Source of the DNA: Streptomyces puniciscabiei
GTDB taxonomy: Bacteria > Actinomycetota > Actinomycetes > Streptomycetales > Streptomycetaceae
Length of the DNA stretch: 64,000 nt
Direction of reading: 5' to 3'
NCBI RefSeq assembly: GCF_006715785.1
Contig: NZ_VFNX01000001.1
Span: 1,564,501-1,628,500 of the forward strand
The translations under genes and the position numbers were made by a program. This document shows, piece after piece, positions 1-53,149 of this stretch (its first letter is position 1; each line of letters starts with the position of its first letter). The notes beneath the pieces were generated by a model. It did no database searches and was not told where the DNA came from. It worked only from the letters and a program-made list of their open reading frames with translations.

Positions 1-454
1 GGCGGGCAAGGCGCCGCAGCGACGGCGGCCGACCTACACCCCAGCAGTCCGGTGCCCGCGCGCCACGAAGCCCAAAGGGTCGTACAGTCACGGCGGGCAA
101 GGCGCCGCAGCGACGGCGGCCGGCCTACGCCCCAGCAGTCCGGTGCCCGCGCGCCACGAAGCCCAAGGGGTCGTACGGTGACGGCGGGCAAGGCGCCGCA
201 GCGACGGCGGCCGGCCTACGCCCCAGCAGTCCGGTGCCCGCGCGCCACGAAGCCCAAGGGGTCGTACGGTGACGGCGGGCAAGGCGCCGCAGCGACGGCG
301 GCCGGCCGACGCCCCAGCGGCCGGGAGGCCACACGCCGCGATGCCCGAGGGGTCGTACGGTGAGGCAGGGCCCGGGGCCGCAGCGACGGTGGCCGGCCTA
401 CACCCCGGCGGTCCGGTGCCCGCGCGCCACGAAGCCCAAGGGGGCGTACGGTGA
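1..454. repeat. 91-bp tandem direct repeats, about five copies
   Basis: Five head-to-tail copies begin near 1, 92, 183, 274 and 364. The first four spacings are 91, 91, 91 and 90 bp. Each copy contains the strings GGCGCCGCAGCGACGGCGGC, GTGCCCGCGCGCCACGAAGC and GTCGTACGGTGACGG. Copies 2 and 3 are nearly identical; copy 4 has diverged in its second half and copy 5 at both ends. The last copy ends exactly at the GTG start of the ABC transporter, so every copy repeats a GGTGA start/stop context. The array may extend upstream of the window. Because 91 is not a multiple of three, the frame shifts in each unit, so repeated protein domains are unlikely. Confidence 0.9.
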
Positions 455-25001: not shown

Positions 25002-26375
25002 ATGGCGGAAACGGTCACCTCTTCCAGCACCACCGTTCCTCTCCTCGCCTCGCTCGACCCCTTGTTGCGTGAGTGGCTGCCGAGGCAGCGCTGGTTCGCC
25101 GGCAAGGGGCGCCCGGTCACCGGGTTCACCCCCGTGGCCGTCACCGAACTGCTGCCGCCCGACGGCCGGCTGGGCCTGTACCACCTGCTGCTGCGCGTCC
25201 ACCAGCCGTCCGCGCTCGGCGCCGAGACCCACCCGGGCGACTGCTACCAGCTGCTCATAGGCGTGCGCGAGGCGCTGCCGCCCCGGCTGGCGCCCGCGCT
25301 GATCGGGCATGTGCAGGACGGGCCGCTCGCCGGACGCACGGTGTACGAGGCCCTGTACGACCCCCGGCCCGCCGAGGTGCTCCTGGAGGCCCTGCGCACC
25401 CGGGCCCGCATCGGCGGACTGTGCTTCGAGCGGGACCCGCGCCAGGAGATCCGCGAGGGTCTCGTGGCCCGGCTGATGACCGCCGAGCAGTCCAACTCGT
25501 CGATCGTCTACGGCGATACGTTCATCCTGAAACTGCTGCGCCGGGTGGTGCCCGGCGTCAACCCCGACCTGGAGATACCCCTGGCGCTGGCCCGCGAGGG
25601 CTGCCCCCGGGTGCCCGCGCCGACCGCCTGGCTGCACGCCGAGCTGGACGAGGAGTCGTATGTGCTGGCGGTGCTCCAGCCCTTCGTGAGCGGGGCGAGC
25701 GACGGCTGGGAGCTGGCGCTGCGCGAGCTGGCCAAGGGCGAGGACTTCGCCGCCGAGGCGCGGGCACTGGGCCGGGCCACCGCCGAGGTGCACACCGCGC
25801 TCGCCCACGCCCTGCCGACGGTCACCCTCGGCCATGTGCAGCTGCAGTCGCTGGCCGACGGGATGACCGAGCGGCTCCAGGCGGCGGTCCAGGCGGTGCC
25901 CTCCCTACGGCCGTACGAGGACGGACTGCGCTCGGCCTACTCGGCGCTCGCGTCGCTCGCCACCGAGGGCCGTACCTGGACCGCGCAGCGGATACACGGC
26001 GATCTGCACCTGGGCCAGTGCCTGCGCTCCCCTTCCGGGGAGTGGTCGCTGATCGACTTCGAGGGCGAGCCGGCCCGGCCGCCCGCCGAACGGCGGATGC
26101 CGCAGCCGCCGGTGCGGGACATCGCGGGGATGCTCCGCTCCTTCGACTACGCGGCCCACTCCGTGACCCCGCCCGCGCCGGACTGGGCGCGCGTGTGCCG
26201 GTCCGCCTACTGCTCGGGGTACGCGGAGGTGGCCGGCCGCGATCCGCGCACCGATCCGGTGCTGCTGCGGGCCTACGAGACCGACAAGGCGGTCTACGAG
26301 ACCGTCTACGAGGCCCGCCACCGCCCCGACTGGCTGCCCGTACCGCTCTCGGCGATCCGTCGCCTCGCCGCGTGA
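25002..26375 (+). CDS. pep2: Maltokinase (Pep2/Mak)
   Basis: The 457-residue enzyme phosphorylates maltose at the reducing end, giving alpha-maltose-1-phosphate for GlgE. The protein-kinase-like fold has an N-terminal maltokinase cap domain ([18 protein letters not shown]), the catalytic IHGDLHLGQ with Asp334, and the metal-binding DFEGEP with Asp352. An ATG at 25002 is preceded by GAAAGG about 10 bases upstream; a GTG at 24993 lies too close to that site. The stop is 19 bp before the glgB start, indicating one operon. Confidence 0.92.
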
Positions 26376-26394
26376 AGACCCAGGAGGCTCGTCC

Positions 26395-28677
26395 GTGACA
26401 CCGAAGGGCAAGAAGCACACCAAGAGCAGGGAGAAGACGGTCCCGAAGCAGCAGGTGCCCAGGCACGACAGCGTCGCGGAGGGGGCGCGGCCGGGGGCCG
26501 CCGTCGCACCCGAGGACCGCGCGCGGCTGCTGACGGGAACCCATCACGACCCGCACTCCGTCCTGGGGGCCCATCCGGTGCCCGGCGGCGTGGCCTTCCG
26601 GGTCTTCAGGCCGTACGCGCTGTCCGTCACGGTCGTCACCGGCGAGGTGCGGGCCGAGCTGCACGGCGACGGCGACGGGTTCTTCTCGGGCCTGCTGCCG
26701 TTCGGTGACGTACCGGAGTACCGGCTGCTGGTGGCGTACGAGGGGAACGTCCTGGACACCGAGGACCCCTACCGCTTCCTGCCCACCCTGGGCGAGCTGG
26801 ACCTGCACCTGATCGGCGAGGGCCGGCACGAGCAGCTGTGGCAGGCGCTCGGCGCGCATGTCACCAGCCATCAGGGAGTGCCCGGCACCCGGTTCGCGGT
26901 GTGGGCGCCCGACGCCCGGGGCGTGCGGATCGCGGGCGGCTTCAACTTCTGGGACGGAACCGGCTTCCCCATGCGCTCGCTGGGCTCCTCCGGGGTGTGG
27001 GAGCTGTTCGTGCCGGGGATCGGCGCGGGCGAGGCGTACAAGTTCGAGATCACCCGCCCGGACGGCTCGCGCACCCTGCGCGCCGATCCGCTGGCCCGCC
27101 GTACCGAGGCGCCGCCCGCCACGGCGTCGATCGTGGACGTCTCGCGGCACGAGTGGGGCGACGCGGAGTGGCTGGCGCACCGGGCCGACCTCCCCGTGCA
27201 CGAGGCGCCCTTCTCCGTCTACGAGGTCCACCTGCCCTCCTGGCGGCCGGGCCTAACCTACCGTCAGCTCGCCGACCAACTCACCGCTTATGTGCGGGAG
27301 ATGGGCTTCACGCACGTGGAGCTGATGCCGGTCGCCGAGCACCCCTTCGGCGGGTCCTGGGGCTACCAGGTCACCGGTTTCTACGCGCCGACGGCCCGGC
27401 TCGGCACCCCGGACGACTTCAAGTACCTGGTGGACCGGCTGCACCAGGCCGGGATCGGGGTGCTGATGGACTGGGTGCCGGCCCACTTCCCGCGCGACGA
27501 CTGGGCGCTGGCCGAGTTCGACGGGCGCCCGCTGTACGAGCACCACGATCCGCTGCGGGCCGCGCATCCCGACTGGGGCACGCTGGAGTTCGACTTCGGC
27601 CGCCCGGAGGTGCGCAACTTCCTGGTGGCGAACGCCGTGTACTGGTGCGAGGAGTTCCACATCGACGGGCTGCGCGTGGACGCGGTCGCCTCGATGCTCT
27701 ACCTGGACTACTCGCGCGAGCCGGGCCAGTGGACCCCGAACGAGCACGGCGACCGGGAGAACCTGGACGCGGTCGCCTTCCTCCAGGAGATGAACGCCAC
27801 CGTCTACCGGCGCTGCCCGGGTGTGGTGACCATCGCCGAGGAGTCGACGGCCTGGGACGGCGTCACCCGGCCCACCCACCACAAGGGCCCGAGCGGCTTC
27901 GGCGGGCTCGGCTTCGGCCTGAAGTGGAACATGGGCTGGATGCACGACTCGCTGCAGTACATGGCCCACGAGCCGGTCCACCGCAAGTACCACCACCACG
28001 AGATGACGTTCTCGATGGTGTACGCGTACAGCGAGAACTACGTCCTGCCCATCTCCCACGACGAGGTCGTGCACGGCAAGCGGTCCCTCGTGTCGAAGAT
28101 GCCCGGCGACTGGTGGCAGCAGCGCGCCAACCACCGCGCGTACCTGGCCTTCATGTGGGCCCACCCCGGCAAGCAACTGCTCTTCATGGGCCAGGAGTTC
28201 GCCCAGGGCGCCGAGTGGTCCGAGGCGCACGGCCCGGACTGGTGGCTGCTCGACCCGTCCTACGGCGCCGAGGCCGACCACCGGGGCGTGCGGGATCTCG
28301 TACGGGACCTGAACGCGCTGTACCGGGCGAGCCCGGCGCTGTGGCAGCGGGACACCGACCCGGCGGGCTTCCAGTGGATCATCGGGGACGCGACGGACGA
28401 CAACGTCTTCGCGTTCCTGCGGTGCGCGGCCGACGGCTCCCCCGTGCTGGCGGTGTCGCACTTCTCGCCGGTCGTCCGGCACGACTACCGGCTCGGGGTC
28501 CCGGACGACGTACCGGCCTGGCACGAGTCCCTGAACACGGACGCCGCCCGGTACGGCGGCGGCGATGTCACCAACCCCGACATCATCAAACCCGAGCCCC
28601 AGGGCTGGCACGGCCGCCCGGCGAGCATCCGGCTGACCCTGCCTCCACTGGCGACGGTGTGGCTGCGGCCTGCCTAG
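26395..28677 (+). CDS. glgB: 1,4-alpha-glucan branching enzyme
   Basis: The 760-residue GH13_9 enzyme creates alpha-1,6 branches in the GlgE-made glucan. It has a long charged N-terminus (about 1-35; Lys-rich at residues 2-20), two CBM48 domains and the catalytic barrel. The catalytic residues are Asp429 ([11 protein letters not shown]), Glu482 (TIAEESTAW) and Asp556 ([10 protein letters not shown]). AGGAGG at 26382-26387 supports the GTG at 26395. It is the last gene of the glgE-treS-pep2-glgB operon. A hairpin lies downstream. Confidence 0.95.
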
Positions 28678-28732
28678 CGCTCGTACGGTGCGGGGTCACA
28701 GGTACCCGGGCCGGCGACGGCCACGGCACGCC

Positions 28733-28754
28733 GGGCACCGGCGCCTCGGTGCCC
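28733..28754. terminator. Hairpin between convergent glgB and helicase genes
   Basis: GGGCACCG-GCGCCT-CGGTGCCC forms a perfect 8-bp stem 55 bp after glgB, within the 175-bp convergent gap (28678-28852). It could terminate from both sides. Confidence 0.55.
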
Positions 28755-28852
28755 AGCGCTCCGCGCCCGTGTGTCACGGCCGTGTGTGCGGGAGCCCCTG
28801 TGCTCCCCGCTGCACCCCGGCCACCCGCCGCCGTCGCCCGACGGGAGTCCCG

Positions 28853-31123
28853 CTACGGCCCGGTGACGCCCGCGGCCAGCGCCTGGGGGAGCTCGTCCGT
28901 GTACAGCACCCCGAGCCGCTGGGTGGCGCGGGTCAGGGCGACGTAGAGGTCGCTGGTGCCATAGCCGCCCGGCTCCACCACCAGGACCGAGTCGAATTCG
29001 AGACCCTTGGCCTGGCGGGGGTCGAGGAGGACGACCGTGCGGGTCAGGTCGGGCTCGGCGCCCGCCGTGACGCCGTCCAGCCGGGTGGCCAGCCGGCGGT
29101 GCAGCGCGCGCGGGGCGATGACCGCCAGCCGGCCCTCGGCCGGGGTGAGTTCGGCGACCGCCTTGGCCACGGCCTCGGGCAGGTCGCCGTCGGCCCGCCG
29201 CACCCAGGGCCGTACGCCCGTGGAGCGGACCGAGCTGGGTGGCTCGAAATCGGGGTTCTGGGCGCGGACCACGGCCGCGGCCAGGTCCATGATCTCGGCC
29301 GGGGTGCGGTAGTTGACGCCGAGGCGGGTGTGCTCCCAGCGTTCCTCCACATAGGGGGCGAGGATGTCCGCCCAGGAACCGACACCGGCCGCCTCCGCGG
29401 TCTGGGCGGGGTCGCCGACCAGGGTCATCGAGCGGGTGGGGCTGCGCCGCATCAGCAGCCGCCAGGCCATCGGCGACAGCTCCTGCGCCTCGTCCACGAT
29501 GATGTGCCCGAACGCCCAGGTCCGGTCGGCCGCGGCGCGCTCGGCGGCGCTGCGGTGGTCCGCCTCCTCGTGCCGCTCGGCGAAGCGTTCGGCGTCGATG
29601 ATGTCGTGCGCGGACAGCACCTCGGACGCGTCCGGGTCACCGTCCTCCTTGTCCTCGAACTCGTAGGTCCGGGAGGCGTAGGAGACGTCCAGCACGCCCT
29701 GGGCGTAGGCGATCTGGGTCTCTCGTTCGCGCTCGGCACGGGCCCGTGCCGAGCGCTCGTCCTCGCCGAGGAGTTCGGCCGCCTCGTCCAGCAGGGGGAC
29801 GTCGGCGACGGTCCATGCCCGGGTCACCGGGCGGCGGATGGCGGCGGCGTCCTCCTCGGGGAGGTAGCCGTCGGGCTCCGCGAGGAAGTCGGCGACCAGC
29901 CGCTGCGGGGTGATGCGGGGCCACAACTGGTCGATCGCGCCCCAGACTTCGGGATTCTCGGCGAGCTCGTCGCGGATCTGGGTGATGTCGGAGGCGTCGA
30001 GCAGGCTGCTGCCGTCGTACGGATCGGTGCCGACGCGTTCGGCGTACAGCTCGGTGAGGGTGTTGAGGATGTGCCCCTCGAAGTACTCGCGGGCGGCGTT
30101 GTGCGGCAGCTTCGCGGCGCGGGTGCGCTCGCGGGCGACGCTCACCAGGCCGTCGTCGAGCATCAGCACCTCGCGGTCGTGCTCGATCGCGATGACCGGG
30201 TCGGGCAGGGCCTGCCGGTCGCGTACGACGGCGGCGAGCACGTCGGCCATGCCGGCGCGGCCCTTGACGGCGGCCGCCTCGGGAGTGTCGGTGGCGGTGG
30301 CCTTCACCCCGGGGAACAGCTCGCCGACCGTGGCCAGCAGCACCCCGGTCTCGCCGAGGGAGGGCAGCACCTCGCCGATGTAGCCGAGGAAGGCCGGGTT
30401 GGGGCCGACGATCAGCACGGCCCGGCGGGCCAGCAGCTCGCGGTGCTCGTACAGGAGGTAGGCGGCGCGGTGCAGCGCGACCGCCGTCTTCCCGGTACCG
30501 GGGCCGCCCTCGACCACCAGCACCCCCCGGTGCGGCGCCCGGATGATCCGGTCCTGCTCGGCCTGGATGGTCTGCACGATGTCGGTCATCCGGCCGGTGC
30601 GCGCCGAGTTCAGCGCGGCCAGCAGCACGGCATCCCCGTTGTGGTCCTCGTACCCGGTGCGGGTGGCGTCGCCGAGGTCGAGGATCTCGTCGTGCAGGGC
30701 GGTCACGGTGCGGCCCTCGGTGCTGATGTGCCGGCGGCGGCGCAGGCCCATCGGGGTGTGACCGGTGGCCAGGTAGAAGGGGCGGGCGACGTCGGCCCGC
30801 CAGTCGATGAGGACGGGGGTGCGCTCGGCGTCGTCCTCGCGCAGCCCGATCCGGCCGATGTGGTGGGCGGTGCCGTCGGCGAGGTCGATCCGGCCGAAGC
30901 AGAGCGAGCCGTCGACGGCGTTCAGCGCGGCGAGCAGCCCCGAGCGCTCGGCGACCAGGATGTCCCGCTCCAGCCGGGCCTGCATGGGCTTGTCGCCCTG
31001 GGCGAGCGCGTCCGCGACCGAGGTCGCGGCCTCGCCGCGCAGCACGTCCACGCGCGCGTACAGTCCGTCGATGAATTCCTGCTCGCGCCGCAATTCATCG
31101 TTCGGAAATTCGGTGTTTGACAA
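28853..31123 (-). CDS. HelD-like UvrD/Rep-family helicase
   Basis: The 756-residue SF1 ATPase belongs to the HelD group, which binds RNA polymerase and frees stalled complexes. An N-terminal coiled-coil region (NDELRREQEFIDGLYARV) is followed by Walker A (VVEGGPGTGKTA, about residue 215), Walker B (IIVDEAQEL) and the C-terminal helicase motifs GLEFDSVLVV and LYVALTRAT. In actinobacteria some members confer rifampicin tolerance; none of the known rifampicin-associated element was seen upstream. TTG 31123 is chosen because GGGAG lies 5-6 bases upstream. It is divergent from the small-RNA candidate, with overlapping upstream sequence. Confidence 0.85.
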   Translation of the reverse strand: MSNTEFPNDELRREQEFIDGLYARVDVLRGEAATSVADALAQGDKPMQARLERDILVAERSGLLAALNAVDGSLCFGRIDLADGTAHHIGRIGLREDDAERTPVLIDWRADVARPFYLATGHTPMGLRRRRHISTEGRTVTALHDEILDLGDATRTGYEDHNGDAVLLAALNSARTGRMTDIVQTIQAEQDRIIRAPHRGVLVVEGGPGTGKTAVALHRAAYLLYEHRELLARRAVLIVGPNPAFLGYIGEVLPSLGETGVLLATVGELFPGVKATATDTPEAAAVKGRAGMADVLAAVVRDRQALPDPVIAIEHDREVLMLDDGLVSVARERTRAAKLPHNAAREYFEGHILNTLTELYAERVGTDPYDGSSLLDASDITQIRDELAENPEVWGAIDQLWPRITPQRLVADFLAEPDGYLPEEDAAAIRRPVTRAWTVADVPLLDEAAELLGEDERSARARAERERETQIAYAQGVLDVSYASRTYEFEDKEDGDPDASEVLSAHDIIDAERFAERHEEADHRSAAERAAADRTWAFGHIIVDEAQELSPMAWRLLMRRSPTRSMTLVGDPAQTAEAAGVGSWADILAPYVEERWEHTRLGVNYRTPAEIMDLAAAVVRAQNPDFEPPSSVRSTGVRPWVRRADGDLPEAVAKAVAELTPAEGRLAVIAPRALHRRLATRLDGVTAGAEPDLTRTVVLLDPRQAKGLEFDSVLVVEPGGYGTSDLYVALTRATQRLGVLYTDELPQALAAGVTGP

Positions 31124-31146
31124 TTCCGCTCCCGCCCGGATATACT
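31117..31146 (+). promoter_or_regulatory. Near-consensus vegetative promoter (TTGACA-N18-TATACT)
   Basis: TTGACA (31117-31122) and TATACT (31141-31146) are separated by 18 bp. This is an unusually strong HrdB-type promoter for Streptomyces. It reads rightward, away from the helicase, and overlaps the helicase ribosome-binding region on the other strand. No annotated protein gene on the + strand follows; a structured 90-nt segment with a terminator does. Confidence 0.8.
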
Positions 31147-31152
31147 GTGCCC

Positions 31153-31246
31153 AGTGAACTTCTCCGTGGCTTCTTGTAAATGAAGTCACGAACCACTGAA
31201 TATACGCACAGAAATCCCCCGAGCGCAATTGCTCAGGGGATTTTTT
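31153..31246 (+). ncRNA. Candidate small RNA (about 94 nt) between the helicase and trxA
   Basis: Transcription from the promoter at 31117 should start about 31153 and end in the T-tract at 31241-31246. The 5' part folds into an 8-bp hairpin, GTGGCTTC (31166-31173) with GAAGTCAC (31182-31189). An outer CAGTG/CACTG stem also forms. The 3' part is the intrinsic terminator. A nine-codon frame, GTG 31154 to TGA 31183 (MNFSVASCK), begins at the predicted transcription start, so a leaderless mini-peptide or attenuator is possible. I know of no named family it matches. Confidence 0.6.
31212..31246. terminator. Intrinsic terminator of the small RNA, shared with trxA
   Basis: A 10-position stem (9 pairs, one C-A mismatch), TCCCCCGAGC with GCTCAGGGGA around a GCAATT loop, is followed by six T on the + strand. 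The flanking AAA/TTT can extend the pairing. It lies 16 bp past the trxA stop on the other strand, where it would also terminate trxA, more weakly. Confidence 0.85.
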
Positions 31247-31262
31247 GATGGGCGGCCGCGCC

Positions 31263-31595
31263 TTACAGCACGTCGGCCAGCTCTTCCATGAGGCGCCGCT
31301 TGGGCCGCGCCCCGACCATGGACCGCACCGGCTCACCGTCCCGGAAGACCATCAGGGTCGGCGTGGACAGCACCCCGTAGGCGACCGTCGTCTCCGGATT
31401 GCGGTCGACGTCGAGCTGTACGACCTTCAGCCGGTCGCCCTCCTCGAAGGCGATGTCCTTCAGCACCGGCGCGAGCTGCCGGCACGGGCCGCACCAGTCC
31501 GCCGTGAACTGCACCAGGACCGGAAGGCCGGCGCCTATCACCTCCGCCTGGAAATCCGCGTCCGTCACCTCGTCCAGTCCGCTCACCAAGCTCAT
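31263..31595 (-). CDS. trxA: Thioredoxin
   Basis: The 110-residue thioredoxin has the active site WCGPC (Cys35, Cys38) and the cis-Pro loop STPTLMVF. It reduces protein disulfides in the cytoplasm. Its ATG overlaps the TGA of the upstream MerR gene (ATGA), so redox regulator and thioredoxin form one operon. Followed by the bidirectional terminator. Confidence 0.95.
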   Translation of the reverse strand: MSLVSGLDEVTDADFQAEVIGAGLPVLVQFTADWCGPCRQLAPVLKDIAFEEGDRLKVVQLDVDRNPETTVAYGVLSTPTLMVFRDGEPVRSMVGARPKRRLMEELADVL

Positions 31596-32020
31596 CGCGA
31601 AAGCCCTCCCAGCTCGCACACGGGCTCCGGACCTCCCGGAACCAGCGCCTCGGCGGCCAGCGCGTCCCGGGCCAGCTCGGCCCGCCGCAGCTGCCCGGCG
31701 ACCGTCTCCCGCACGGACTGCAGCTGCCCGATGAGCGCGTCCAGCTCGCCCAGCTTGCGCCGGTAGACCTGGAGCGAGGCCGGGCAGGAGTCGCCCTCCG
31801 GGTGCCCGGCGCGCAGGCACTCCACGAAGGGCCGCGTCTCCTCCAGCTCGAAGCCGAAGTCCTGCAAGGTCCGGATCTGCTCCAGCAGCCGCAGATCGCC
31901 CTCGTCGTAATGGCGGTGCCCGTTGCCGTCGCGCCGCGCCGGCAGCAGCCCGCGTGCCTCGTAGTACCGCAGGGTGCGGGTGGTGGTCCCGGCCCGTGCG
32001 GCCAGCTCGCCGATTCGCAT
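31592..32020 (-). CDS. MerR-family regulator of the trxA operon
   Basis: The 142-residue protein has an N-terminal MerR winged helix-turn-helix (RIGELAARAGTTTRTLRYYE) and a dimerisation coiled coil. Cysteines are in GDSCPAS and near the end in PVCELGG, which may sense redox or electrophile stress. The ATG at 32020 is 7 nt past the -10 box of a MerR-type promoter, so the message may be leaderless; a GTG six bases upstream is the alternative. It probably activates its own operon with trxA, to which it is coupled. Confidence 0.88.
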   Translation of the reverse strand: MRIGELAARAGTTTRTLRYYEARGLLPARRDGNGHRHYDEGDLRLLEQIRTLQDFGFELEETRPFVECLRAGHPEGDSCPASLQVYRRKLGELDALIGQLQSVRETVAGQLRRAELARDALAAEALVPGGPEPVCELGGLSR

Positions 32021-32027
32021 GCCCACG

Positions 32028-32058
32028 ACCGTAGGGGTTGACGTCGGCGTCAAGGCAA
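32028..32058 (-). promoter_or_regulatory. MerR-type promoter with 19-bp spacer and embedded operator
   Basis: On the reverse strand, TTGCCT (32053-32058) and TACGGT (32028-32033) are separated by 19 bp, the overlong spacing typical of MerR-activated promoters. The spacer holds the palindrome TTGACG-N4-CGTCAA (32038-32053). It drives merR-trxA. Confidence 0.7.
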
Positions 32059-32089
32059 GCGGTCGTCCGGCGGGTGACCGGGGGACTCC

Positions 32090-32623
32090 TCAGCGGCAGA
32101 GCCGGTCGAGTTCCCCGGCGAAGGAAGGGAACTCCGCCGCGGCCGCGGCGACGATCTCCGGGGCCGGGCGGCGCGGGGTGGTGGCGTGCCGGGTGGCGAG
32201 GTCCGCCAGTACGGCGTCGGGGCGGGCCGTCCACTCCTCCTCGGGCCACAGGGCCTCCCGTGGGCCGTAGCCGTCGGCCAGCACCCACAGGAAGTCGGAG
32301 AGGTTCCCGGCCACCACTCCGGCCTCCCCCTCGGAGCCCAGGAACACCACCGGCTGCTCGGGCAGGGTCCGCCCCGGCCGGACACACCACACCGCGGCGA
32401 GGCCACCGGTGCCGTGCTTGCCGAAGACCCGGTAGGCGCCGCCGTCGGCCTCCGGGTTGCCGGTCCACCGCCGGAGCCAGTCGGTGGTGTCCTCGGCGGA
32501 GTCGAAGGCGTCGTACGGCTCGAAGTCGACGCCGTCGCCGTGGTCGTACGCGAACTCCACGCGGGCCACCTCGGCCAGGGCCGGCGGGAGGCGGCGGCCG
32601 TCCTCGGTCCCGGCGGACGTCAC
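32090..32623 (-). CDS. SMI1/KNR4 (SUKH)-like protein
   Basis: The 177-residue cytoplasmic protein has the segments FGKHGTGGLAAVWCV, PVVFLGSEGEAGVVAGNLSD and FLWVLADG, typical of SMI1/KNR4-like proteins. In bacteria many such proteins are immunity proteins of polymorphic toxins; no toxin partner is nearby, so the role here is open. The GTG overlaps the stop of the upstream DUF2127 gene (GTGA), so the two are coupled. Confidence 0.6.
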   Translation of the reverse strand: MTSAGTEDGRRLPPALAEVARVEFAYDHGDGVDFEPYDAFDSAEDTTDWLRRWTGNPEADGGAYRVFGKHGTGGLAAVWCVRPGRTLPEQPVVFLGSEGEAGVVAGNLSDFLWVLADGYGPREALWPEEEWTARPDAVLADLATRHATTPRRPAPEIVAAAAAEFPSFAGELDRLCR

Positions 32624-33384
32624 ACGGTCACCCCCGCCGACTCCTCCACCTCCATCAGGGAGGCGCTGTGGCGCTCCTCCTCGAACTTGCGGCGGCCGCC
32701 GCGCAGGCCGAACAGGCGCTTGGCCAGGGCGATGTAGAGGACGGCGAGGATGTTGAGGACCAGCGTGGCGATCTTCAGGTAGCTGACCTTCTCGGTGAGC
32801 TCGTAGATCTCCAGGGGGAGGAAGGCGGCGGTGGCGACCACCGTCAGGTACTCCGCCCAGCGCTTGGCGTACCAGAGGCCGACCGCCTCGACCAGCTCGA
32901 TCAGCGCGTAGGCGAGCAGCAGGGCGGCGACCAGCAGGAGGGTGTTGTGCTTGTAGCCGAACGCCTTCTGGATGGAGCCGACGACCGGGGAGTGGTCGAG
33001 GTCGTAGTGGAAGTGGCGGAACACCGGGCGGAAGACGTCCAGGTTCTCGTTGAAGAGCTTGCGCACGGCGTCCTGGCTGTTGCTGAACTTCCACACCGCC
33101 ACCGCGACCAGCACGATGAACACCCCGCGCACGGCCCGCTCGATCGCGAGGAAGCGCAGGATGAACAGGTCGCGGAGCACCTTGCCGCGCGGTACGAGCG
33201 GCGCGTCGGCGGCCGGGCCGGAGCCGTGCGGCTCACCCAGCACGAAGTCACCGCAGCGCAGGCAGCGCCACACCTCCCCGAGCGCGGTCTCGGCGTGCAG
33301 CCGGACCCGCAGCCGGGGGTCGTCCGGCGCGTACGTGATGTGGCCCTTGCGCGCGCAGGTCCGCCGGTCCCAGTCGATCTTCAT
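32620..33384 (-). CDS. DUF2127 family membrane protein
   Basis: The 254-residue protein begins with a short Zn-ribbon-like segment (two cysteines in WRCLRCGDFVLGE) and continues with about four membrane helices in about 100-235, consistent with the DUF2127 family of putative integral membrane proteins. The C-terminus is charged. The ATG at 33384 has GGAGG 8-9 bases upstream; two further upstream ATGs are less likely. Function unknown. It is coupled to the SMI1/KNR4-like gene. Confidence 0.75.
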   Translation of the reverse strand: MKIDWDRRTCARKGHITYAPDDPRLRVRLHAETALGEVWRCLRCGDFVLGEPHGSGPAADAPLVPRGKVLRDLFILRFLAIERAVRGVFIVLVAVAVWKFSNSQDAVRKLFNENLDVFRPVFRHFHYDLDHSPVVGSIQKAFGYKHNTLLLVAALLLAYALIELVEAVGLWYAKRWAEYLTVVATAAFLPLEIYELTEKVSYLKIATLVLNILAVLYIALAKRLFGLRGGRRKFEEERHSASLMEVEESAGVTV

Positions 33385-33493
33385 CCCCCGTGCCTCCATC
33401 GCACTTACTGATTCACCTGTACGGACGCCGGGCACGAACGTGCCGTTCCGGTCGGTCCGGAGCGGCACGTTAGCGGATGGAGGCGGGAAACGG

Positions 33494-35167
33494 TCAGCCG
33501 ACCGAGCTGTCCACCAGTTCCTTCTCCTCGGTCTTCACCTCCGGCGCGGCGGCTTCACGGCGCGGCAGCAGGACGCCCACGAGGACCGTGCCGATGCCGA
33601 GGACCACCGCGCCGACCAGGCTGGTGTGGGCGACGGCGGAGGAGAAGGAGGAGCCGACCGCGTCGGCCATCTGCCCGGCGCCCGTGGCGAGTTCGGCGGC
33701 CTGCTGCTTGAGCTGTGCGGCCTGCTGGGGGTCCTTGGCGTGGGCCGCCTGCGCGGCCAGCGCGTGCGCCTTGTCGCCGATGCCCTGGGCGACGGCGTAC
33801 CCGGCGCCGACGGAGTCCCGGGCGGTGTCCAGGGCGCTCGCCGGGAGCCTGCTGCCGGCGGTGGCGTCGCTCAGGTGGTTGCCGTACGACGTGGCGAGCA
33901 GCGAGCCGAGGATCGCGATGCCCAGGGAGCCGCCGAGCTCCAGCGAGGTGTCGTTGACCGCGCCGCCGACGCCCAGCTCGGACTCCGGGAAGGCGCCCAT
34001 GATGGCGTCGGTGCAGGGCGAGAGCGCGAGGCCGATGGCGAGACCGAGGATGATCAGCGGGGCCAGGAAGTCGGTGTAGGTCGAGGCCCCGTCGACCCGG
34101 GTCAGCAGCGCCAGGGCCGTCGTACCGCCGATCATGCCCGCCGTGACGGTCCACTTCATGCCCACGCGCGGGGTGAGCCAGCCGGTCAGCGCCGAGCCGA
34201 CGAAGACCGCGCCGGCCAGCGGGAGCATGCGTACGCCGGTCTCCAGGGCGTCGTAGCCGAGGACGAACTGCAGGTGCTGCGTGAGGTAGTAGAAGGCGCC
34301 GAAGACGGCCAGGAAGAACAGGGCGACGGCGAGGTTGGAGCCGGCGAAGCGGCGGGTGGTGAAGCGGCGCACGTCGAGGATGGGTCGGGGGTGGCGCAGC
34401 TCCCAGGCCACGAAGGCGACCAGGCCGATGCCCGCGACCACCGCCGCCGTGACGGCCTTGACGCCCCAGCCGAAGTGCGGGCCCTCGATGATCATGTAGA
34501 CCAGCGAGCCGGTCCAGATCACCGACAGCAGTCCGCCGACGTAGTCGATGCGGTCGTGGTGACCGGCCTTGGAGGGCGGGACCAGGACGAAGGCGGCGAC
34601 GCTCGCGACGGCCGCGATGGGCACGTTGATCAGGAAGGTCGAGGACCAGCCGTGGTCGCGCAGCAGAGCGCCGGCGACCACCGGGCCGGCGGCGATGGCG
34701 AGGCCGGCGGTGGCGGTCCACAGCGTGATCGCCTTGGCCCGCTCGGCGCGCGGGAAGGTCGCGGCGAGCAGGGAGAGCGTGGCGGGCATGATCAGCGCCG
34801 CGCCGACGCCCATCACGGCGCGGGCCGCGATGACGGTCGCCGCGCTGTCGGCGAGGTAGCCGAAGACGGCACCGCCGCCGAAGACGAGGAGGCCGAGGAC
34901 GAGGGCGCCGCGCCGGCTGTACTTGTCGCCGATGGCGCCGAGCAGCAGCATCAGGGCGGCGTAGGGGACGGTGTAACCGTCGATCACCCACTGCAGGTCG
35001 GCACTGGAGAGCCCGAGGTCCTTCGTCATGTCGGGCGCGGCGACCGTGAGAGCGGTGTTCGCCATCACGATGATCAGCAGGCTCAGGCAGAGCACGAGCA
35101 GTGCCCACCAGCGCCGGGCGTAGGGGCGCTCCATCTTCTCGACCGGTTCGGTCATGACGAGTCGCAT
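33494..35167 (-). CDS. MFS drug efflux transporter, DHA2 (EmrB/QacA-like) type
   Basis: The 557-residue protein has about 14 transmembrane helices with the MFS motif A as GAIGDKYSRRG between helices 2 and 3. A soluble Ala/Gln-rich segment (about 455-515; AAQLKQQAAEL) precedes the last helix. It likely exports cationic drugs or antibiotics by proton antiport. The gene is divergent from a TetR regulator across a region with three 18-bp operators. ATG 35167 has GGAAGG about 10 bases upstream; ATG 35155 is an alternative. Confidence 0.9.
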   Translation of the reverse strand: MRLVMTEPVEKMERPYARRWWALLVLCLSLLIIVMANTALTVAAPDMTKDLGLSSADLQWVIDGYTVPYAALMLLLGAIGDKYSRRGALVLGLLVFGGGAVFGYLADSAATVIAARAVMGVGAALIMPATLSLLAATFPRAERAKAITLWTATAGLAIAAGPVVAGALLRDHGWSSTFLINVPIAAVASVAAFVLVPPSKAGHHDRIDYVGGLLSVIWTGSLVYMIIEGPHFGWGVKAVTAAVVAGIGLVAFVAWELRHPRPILDVRRFTTRRFAGSNLAVALFFLAVFGAFYYLTQHLQFVLGYDALETGVRMLPLAGAVFVGSALTGWLTPRVGMKWTVTAGMIGGTTALALLTRVDGASTYTDFLAPLIILGLAIGLALSPCTDAIMGAFPESELGVGGAVNDTSLELGGSLGIAILGSLLATSYGNHLSDATAGSRLPASALDTARDSVGAGYAVAQGIGDKAHALAAQAAHAKDPQQAAQLKQQAAELATGAGQMADAVGSSFSSAVAHTSLVGAVVLGIGTVLVGVLLPRREAAAPEVKTEEKELVDSSVG

Positions 35168-35214
35168 GGCAGGGGTCGCCTTCCTCGGTGCGCGACGGGA
35201 CGGACGGAGTGGAT

Positions 35215-35277
35215 TTGCATAGCACCGTGCAATTGCACAACACTGTGCAATGTACGTCATTGCACAGTGCTGTGCAA
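35215..35277. promoter_or_regulatory. Three 18-bp TetR operators in the efflux/regulator divergent promoter
   Basis: Three related palindromes occur: TTGCATAGCACCGTGCAA (35215-35232), TTGCACAACACTGTGCAA (35233-35250) and TTGCACAGTGCTGTGCAA (35260-35277). All share TTGCA and GTGCAA outer arms. The first two abut; the third follows a 9-bp gap and ends 20 bp before the tetR start. They most likely bind the adjacent TetR regulator and shut off both genes. Confidence 0.85.
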
Positions 35278-35296
35278 GTCGACCGGGGAGGGCACA

Positions 35297-35938
35297 ATGT
35301 CGGCCATGACCACGGGTAACACCAGCCGCGCCGACGCCAACCGGCGCCGCATCCTCGACGTCGCCCTCGCCGAACTGCTGCGCGACCCCGACGCCTCCAT
35401 GGACCAGATCGCGCGCGCCGCGGGGGTCGTACGGCGGACGGTGTACGGCCATTTCCCCAGCCGCGAGGCGCTGATCAGCACCCTCGTCGACGAGGCGGTG
35501 CAGGCGCTGACGGACGCGGACGCGGAGGTACGCGCCGGGGTGGCGGACCCGGTGGAGGCGGTGGCCCGCTCGGTGCTCGCGATCTGGGCGACCGCCGACC
35601 GCTACCGCCTGCTGATCGCGCTCGCCCAGCGCACGGTCACCGTCCAGGGCATCCGCGAACGCCTCGCCCCGCTGCGCGCCGCCAAGGTCCGGCTGCTCCA
35701 ACAGGGCCTGGACGAGGGTGTGTTCAGCTCCCCGCTGCCGGCGCCGGCGCTGGCGTACGTGCACGAGCAGCTGCTGTTCGCGGTGATGGAGGCGGTGAAC
35801 GACGGCCTCGTGACAGCACAGGAGGCGGGCCGCTCGGCCACGGTCACGGTCCTGACCGCGGCGGGCGTACCCGCCTCGACGGCCACCGCGCTGGTGGCCA
35901 GGGTGAGCGAGGAGAAACGCGAGAAGCCGGGCGGCTGA
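35297..35938 (+). CDS. TetR-family repressor of the MFS efflux gene
   Basis: The 213-residue protein has a TetR HTH (MDQIARAAGVVRRTVYGHFPSREALI, about 30-62, with the typical Tyr-x-His-Phe) and a ligand-binding C-terminal domain that is not assignable by sequence. GGGGAGG lies 5-6 bases before the ATG at 35297. It is divergent from the DHA2 transporter and separated from it by the triple operator, the classic arrangement for drug-induced derepression. Confidence 0.9.
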   Translation: MSAMTTGNTSRADANRRRILDVALAELLRDPDASMDQIARAAGVVRRTVYGHFPSREALISTLVDEAVQALTDADAEVRAGVADPVEAVARSVLAIWATADRYRLLIALAQRTVTVQGIRERLAPLRAAKVRLLQQGLDEGVFSSPLPAPALAYVHEQLLFAVMEAVNDGLVTAQEAGRSATVTVLTAAGVPASTATALVARVSEEKREKPGG

Positions 35939-35954
35939 GGTACGGGGGAACCTC

Positions 35955-35972
35955 AACCGCCCGGCGGCGGTT
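35955..35972. terminator. Hairpin terminator after tetR
   Basis: AACCGCC-CGGC-GGCGGTT forms a 7-bp stem with a 4-nt loop 16 bp past the tetR stop. Confidence 0.6.
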
Positions 35973-36039
35973 CCGGATGCCCGGCCCGGGTTCAGGCGGG
36001 GCCGGACATCCGGAGTATTGGGTGCGCTTTTTCAGCGAG

Positions 36040-52770: not shown

Positions 52771-53149
52771 ATTTCCTCCTTCTCGGACGTACATCTCCTG
52801 GCCCGGACCTCGCCCCGGAACGGTGGCTCAGCCAGGCAGGGATGGGAGAAGTGCTACGTCCTCGGGAAGGAGAGCGCCCGCGCTCGGTGGCGCGAACCGC
52901 GCCCGAATCACCGGCGATCACCCCCGAGCGACAACCACTGGTCGCGCCTGACACGCATCACGCACAACCTTGCTGGACAGGCTTCGCCGGATGGACGAAG
53001 ACCCCCCTGCCCTAGAGCCGGCGCCACTGCCGCCGGCTCTGCTCGGTGGGGACCCAGAGTCTCCCGTTACCCGACCGGCTGCCGGGGTACGGGAATGGAC
53101 CGAGCGTCGCCGATCGTGGTGCATTCTCGGCCCGGACACAAGGGGGTTC

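Follow-up and report, generated by a model that had tools for sequence, protein, structure and literature searches.

A widely conserved, predicted antisense promoter faces the likely helD promoter in Streptomyces

The window, a 64,000-nucleotide stretch of the Streptomyces puniciscabiei genome, carries helD on the minus strand (28853..31123), encoding a 756-residue protein from a TTG start. The product is of the class II type of RNA polymerase recycling motor; HelD frees RNA polymerase, and helD is in that sense an RNA polymerase rescue gene. Its upstream neighbour on the same strand is trxA (31263..31595), encoding a thioredoxin that scores just over the cut-off of TIGR01068, next to a merR-type gene (31592-32053, minus strand), and beyond helD lies glgB on the plus strand (26395-28677). 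The helD product, scored as the frame 28853-31165, did not reach the HelR family cut-offs (434 of 750 bits for NF041254 and 729 of 1100 for NF041258). The window genome has no HelR over the NF041254 cut-off, its best match being the window helD itself; a HelR over that cut-off is present in 30 of 41 genomes searched. The S. coelicolor protein SCO5439 is given as 755 residues in a passage of PMC8655204. At the helD leader locus, no Rfam 15 family reached its gathering score.

The start of helD overlaps a near-consensus promoter on the opposite strand. This predicted antisense promoter, P-anti-helD, reads TTGACA-N18-TATACT, with its -35 at 31117..31122 and its -10 at 31141..31146 on the plus strand. 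It is the sole match at up to two mismatches in the 64 kb, where 0.23 would be expected, and the sole promoter-like site listed by a scan of 26000-36000, where 0.2 would be expected. The original prediction, made from the same DNA, had proposed this promoter together with a hairpin and a T6 terminator, and sequence and fold confirm all three. It had also placed the promoter over the helD ribosome-binding region; both the helD Shine-Dalgarno sequence (GGGAG, 31133-31129, minus strand) and the start codon lie inside it. The -35 shares its bases with the TTG start codon of helD (31123-31121, minus strand) and with the second codon, TCA.

Promoter geometry and folding together predict a 94-nt RNA from 31153 to 31246 on the plus strand. 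As trxA and helD are both on the minus strand, this RNA would be antisense to the helD leader. Its minimum-energy fold consists of two hairpins (-34.9 kcal/mol, z -5.2, with none of 200 shuffles as good). One, at 31165..31190 on the plus strand, lies where both predicted transcripts overlap and shows covariation, described below. The other is the terminator hairpin, with T6 on the plus strand, seen in the fold and in the alignment at 31210..31246 (stem-loop 31210-31245); it is nearly symmetrical and so may also end trxA on the minus strand. A simple terminator scan did not list it (none found, 1.5 expected), probably because its stem has one mismatch. GAACTTC, conserved near the antisense start (31156-31162), and the GAAGT arm of the first hairpin (31182-31186) are complementary, so an alternative, competing pairing is possible.

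Facing the antisense promoter on the minus strand is a likely helD promoter, PhelD, reading TTGCGC-N18-TATATT from 31228 to 31199, with its -35 at 31223..31228 and its -10 at 31199..31204. Its -35 straddles the terminator loop, taking in the last two bases of the stem and the first four of the loop. The predicted helD 5' leader would start near 31193 (31124..31193, minus strand), and with each +1 set 6-7 nt past its -10 the predicted start sites of the two promoters are about 40 bp apart. The antisense RNA is thus predicted to cross the helD promoter and end at the terminator just past the PhelD -35. Judged by sequence only, the antisense promoter at this locus matches the consensus at 11 of 12 positions and PhelD at 8 of 12, from which we infer that the antisense promoter is the stronger. 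Among the weaker-scoring loci described below the sense -35 is often TTGACA or TTGACG, so this strength contrast need not extend to them.

The elements, their geometry and their conservation can be observed directly. A DNA similarity search at E 0.001 matched 205 of 392 genomes of the genus. Thirty loci with the highest similarity over the whole element (L001-L030, chosen without the sense -10 as a criterion) were pooled with 119 among the exact-pattern matches listed (L031-L149), and these 149 loci gave 136 distinct elements. The selection pattern for L031-L149 included the sense -10 and the terminator's first bases, so their agreement at both is by construction. All 136 listed elements carry TTGACA-18-TANNNT in the antisense direction, the -10 being TATACT in 118, TACACT in six, TATGCT in three, TATAGT in three, TATGAT and TATAAT in two each, and TAGAAT and TAGGAT in one each. 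The PhelD -10, TATATT, is found in 29 of the 30 best-similarity loci. Four elements could not be parsed, leaving 132 for the start-codon and sense -35 counts, and the PhelD -35 is exactly TTGCGC in 121 of these.

The four promoter elements with their spacing, used as a pattern, gave one match in the 9.1-Mb window genome and none in the control. The pattern was found in 122 of 150 Streptomyces genomes and absent from 28, the reversed control matching in 2 of 150. Thirty of the 122 matches were examined and all 30 are at a helD start; among the remainder, at least one (G069) is unlike helD by its letters. For the alignment, filters on length and 95% identity reduced the 136 elements to 112; in two the terminator could not be parsed. 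A covariance model built from these 112 matched 166 of 197 genomes from the order, each a member of the window's genus. The 31 misses comprise 15 genomes of the same genus and 16 of other genera, a genus tally of 166 of 181, and 6 of the 15 Streptomyces genomes without a model match still have a helD start with a TTGACA promoter antisense to it. The conservation that the original prediction proposed as a check is present in most Streptomyces genomes examined, and the stem covaries among the aligned elements. Its description of the promoter as an orphan does not hold: the promoter is antisense to helD, faces a conserved helD promoter, and stays with helD where trxA is absent, as in 15 of the 140 loci with at least 500 bp on the upstream side (for example L005, L008 and L025). 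It is a widely conserved, predicted promoter with a predicted RNA, and belongs to a pair of convergent promoters in front of helD.

Twenty weaker-scoring loci (L170-L189) were picked from the weaker half of the covariance-model matches. All 20 are at a helD that is 64-71% identical to the window's, with the exception of L170 (89%). Their hairpin and terminator sequences diverge widely. The TTG-TCA codons, TTGACA and TANNNT are kept in all 20, with a spacer of 18 bp in 18 and 17 bp in two. The facing promoter is likewise present in all 20, as TTGAC[AG]-19-TATATT in 16 and TTGCG[CG]-18-TATATT in four. Counted column by column in 17 of these loci, omitting L170 and the two with a 17-bp spacer (L183 and L187), the -35, T1, A2 and T6 of the -10, a G at -14 and most Shine-Dalgarno bases are invariant, and positions 3-5 of the antisense -10 are only 41-59% conserved. 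Each of the 20 can form a terminator hairpin (-18.9 to -38.5 kcal/mol over 48 nt). Between the promoters, the fold is more stable than in shuffles (z of -1.5 or below) in 13 of 20, with a mean z of -2.2, which makes the middle hairpin frequent, not universal.

These loci bear on the original prediction of a probable small RNA. A dedicated, terminated plus-strand RNA is supported by the conservation and by the stem covariation; an orphan or trans-acting RNA does not stand as the main reading. A 94-nt RNA that regulates distant mRNAs, and lies beside helD by chance or for co-regulation, would have its own promoter, covarying stem and terminator, as seen here. But in the weaker-scoring loci the promoter elements and their spacing persist where the sequence inside the RNA is poorly preserved, and each of the 30 pattern loci and 20 weaker loci examined has the element at helD. 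We regard a trans-acting role as unlikely.

The first two codons of helD are TTG and TCA in all 132 parsed listed elements and in all 20 weaker-scoring loci. TCA accounts for just 26 of 2074 later serine codons (1.25%) in 73 full helD genes. The fixation of this start codon and rare serine codon can be understood from their together forming the antisense -35. It could be argued that only the helD leader (promoter, hairpin, Shine-Dalgarno sequence and start codon) and the trxA terminator are conserved, with the plus-strand promoter incidental. The Shine-Dalgarno sequence and start codon do lie inside the plus-strand promoter, and the helD promoter is itself conserved. This reading seems very improbable given the fixed TTG and rare TCA, the restriction of changes in the antisense -10 to its degenerate positions, and three loci (L209-L211) in which helD starts ATG-TCA and TTGACA is still kept.

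The middle hairpin shows compensating changes. Across 112 sequences 96.1% of cells in its six core pairs are paired, five of the six with changes on both sides, and none of 500 shuffles reached any of five covariation measures, a result that relatedness inflates, as the tool warns. Promoter interference alone does not explain the presence of this hairpin. One alternative is that the antisense RNA acts in cis: by way of kissing hairpins it would bind the first ~40 nt of helD mRNA and affect how stable that mRNA is or how it is translated. The covarying hairpin lies within the overlap, and wobble pairs favour the plus strand (52 against 15 over the six core pairs), both of which speak for such pairing. 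However, a gap of about 20 nt would separate the antisense RNA start from the helD ribosome-binding site, which the RNA therefore cannot mask, and the overlap folds better than shuffles in only 13 of the 20 weaker loci, all of which keep both promoters. Pairing in cis therefore appears rather unlikely.

The distance between the promoters is also constrained. If +1 is counted as 7 nt after the -10, the distance between predicted start sites is 38-41 bp in 125 of the 136 listed elements, 48-52 bp in 10 and 71 bp in one; in the weaker-scoring loci they are 37-41 bp apart in 19 and 53 bp in one. The 122 pattern matches, for which up to 125 bp was allowed, are 109-115 bp long in 108 cases and 120-125 bp in 12, with none at 116-119 bp and two at 102-103 bp. 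Both the listed elements and the pattern matches fall into two spacing classes some 10-11 bp apart, with an empty gap between them. This step suggests a helical-phase constraint, but the genomes are related and the cases are not independent. Steps of this size would also hold the half-sites of an operator on one face of the DNA, and the inverted repeat between the promoters could in principle bind a protein controlling both. The arm sequences, however, vary between loci with compensating changes, and the loop length drifts by single bases as in an RNA, which makes an operator distinctly unlikely.

Mycobacteria have attenuators built on small, leaderless, cysteine-rich frames, and the original prediction had raised a similar role for a nine-codon frame with a cysteine, MNFSVASCK. 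The frame is indeed readable in the window, from GTG at 31154-31156 beside the predicted +1, a short leaderless Cys frame as in the mycobacterial cases. Neither its start codon nor its cysteine is conserved: 89 of the 136 listed elements have no start codon 4-11 nt past the -10, and 11 of 136 have the cysteine. There is no gene downstream in that direction, the antisense RNA ending ahead of any plus-strand gene, and we rejected this candidate, giving attenuation by such a peptide next to no weight.

The antisense promoter is not confined to Streptomyces. We collected 82 helD homologues from covariance-model misses and a class-wide search, a count that omits the partial or remoter matches L212-L219 and one unusable homologue of 83, and that tallies antisense promoters only. 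TTGACN-17..19-[TC]ANNNT was found antisense near the start in 36 of the 82, where Markov resampling, used as the control in place of exact shuffling, gave an expectation of 0.9. It is present in 9 of 10 homologues of one family (f1), 13 of 13 of a second (f3), 7 of 9 (f19), 3 of 4 (f20) and 4 of 8 (f21), and in none of 38 from the others; the 46 homologues without it are mostly in other families.

Taken together, the arrangement argues that transcriptional interference between two convergent promoters, some 40 bp apart, sets the level of helD expression, a reading to which we give a probability of roughly 0.7. Both transcripts, the relative promoter strengths, the interference and the signal are what we infer from the elements. 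The near-consensus antisense promoter would fire polymerases across the weaker-looking PhelD, and these would terminate just past the PhelD -35, producing the ~94-nt antisense RNA and keeping helD expression low. A stalled or drug-bound polymerase would get stuck first at the busier antisense promoter, ending the interference. Expression of helD would then rise and its product would free the polymerase. The least certain step is the signal, a polymerase stalled by a rifamycin or another inhibitor.

A comparable system is described in parts of PMC12802891 for B. subtilis, where the antisense promoter at helD is stronger than the sense promoter and 39 bp separate their start sites. The antisense RNA there is about 90 nt in vivo and 94 nt in vitro, and has two terminators, the distal one probably serving the upstream gene. 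Sub-inhibitory rifampicin induces helD through loss of interference, as supported by mutation and Northern data, and the criteria for an alarm of this type include slow escape from the sense promoter. The Streptomyces locus resembles this helD/pps alarm in its head-on promoters upstream of helD (about 40 bp predicted here, 39 bp there), its antisense RNA (94 nt predicted here, ~90-94 nt there), its long antisense spacer (18 bp here, 19 bp there), and a terminator probably shared with the upstream gene, which in B. subtilis is the more distal of the two. It differs in that B. subtilis, a Firmicute, has a class I HelD, while the present predicted system belongs to an actinobacterial class II type. 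The antisense -35 over the start codon, the sense -35 straddling the terminator loop and the covarying hairpin between the promoters also set the Streptomyces locus apart.

The same paper, in the parts concerned, states that two convergent promoters do not occur at all helD genes and that actinobacterial rifampicin-protection genes, helD included, feature the rifamycin-associated element, RAE. Its genome search discarded sites overlapping annotated regions, and so would probably have dropped the present site, where the antisense -35 overlaps the start codon. The main text of PMC3765725 does not mention the present locus; nor does the text of PMC11077062, where HelD appears only for another species. 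The parts of the literature on SCO5438, SCO5439, scr5438, scr5439, SVEN_5091 and SVEN_5092 that we searched contain no antisense transcript or facing promoter at helD, and of the papers listed on antisense or convergent promoters of Streptomyces helD, none besides PMC12802891 deals with helD, judged by title and the opening of the abstract.

That Streptomyces and several related families possess, at a class II helD, a B. subtilis-like alarm for stalled RNA polymerase is a tentative proposal, to which we give slightly less than even odds. If true, the alarm has head-on promoters whose spacing is fixed at one value or at one longer by roughly a helical turn, and has locked the start and second codons, which double as the antisense -35; it would also illustrate how an antisense promoter can lock a start codon across a wide evolutionary range. 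Such an alarm would either be an ancient device common to Firmicutes and Actinobacteria or have arisen by striking convergence. It would detect polymerase inhibitors generally, without a dedicated regulator. Rifamycins and other polymerase inhibitors are made by Actinobacteria. Were the proposal right, a mechanism reported in 2026 would also operate, in most Streptomyces examined, within a phylum whose helD was said to use RAE.

The RAE/HelR system also controls a HelD-type gene and is rifampicin-responsive in published work. RAE is a 19-bp palindrome, and it was not found at the present element. We derived the RAE sequence from Streptomyces HelR upstream regions and not from a paper, and take the palindrome to be RAE because its size, symmetry and position match the description in the part of PMC10719064 that deals with it. 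Of 28 HelR loci, 13 have this presumed RAE no more than 260 bp upstream and 24 have it, at up to one mismatch, somewhere in the ~5 kb of the locus, the partial loci L348 and L349 being omitted from these counts. The 64-kb window has no match at up to three mismatches, and the best match in 156 elements of the present type (~150 bp each) has at least seven.

For S. venezuelae, parts of PMC8655204 report that, of five helD genes, rifampicin induces only SVEN_6029, which has RAE. If SVEN_5092 carries the present element, the induction of the RAE-bearing copy alone means that rifampicin may not be the signal, which may instead be other inhibitors, general stalling or growth state. A sensor of this kind would allow a direct test of whether RAE-less helD copies respond to stalled polymerase. 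In S. venezuelae, an untagged-control ChIP gave a single peak, upstream of sven5092, which was discarded in that study (described in part of PMC3781837), and an Lsr2 site is listed at SVEN_5091-92 (in part of PMC6584129). Together these are an indirect hint of unusual occupancy upstream of sven5092.

At the core of the presumed RAE, GGGGCTTGCGGCAAGGCCC (from L320-L347), is TTGCGGCAA, which resembles a -35 in both directions, TTGCGG on one strand and TTGCCG on the opposite one; speculatively, RAE might itself be a two-way -35. Elsewhere in the window, the Rfam che1 small RNA (RF02935) matches at 52912-53013 on the minus strand, with 91.5 bits against a gathering score of 54.1.
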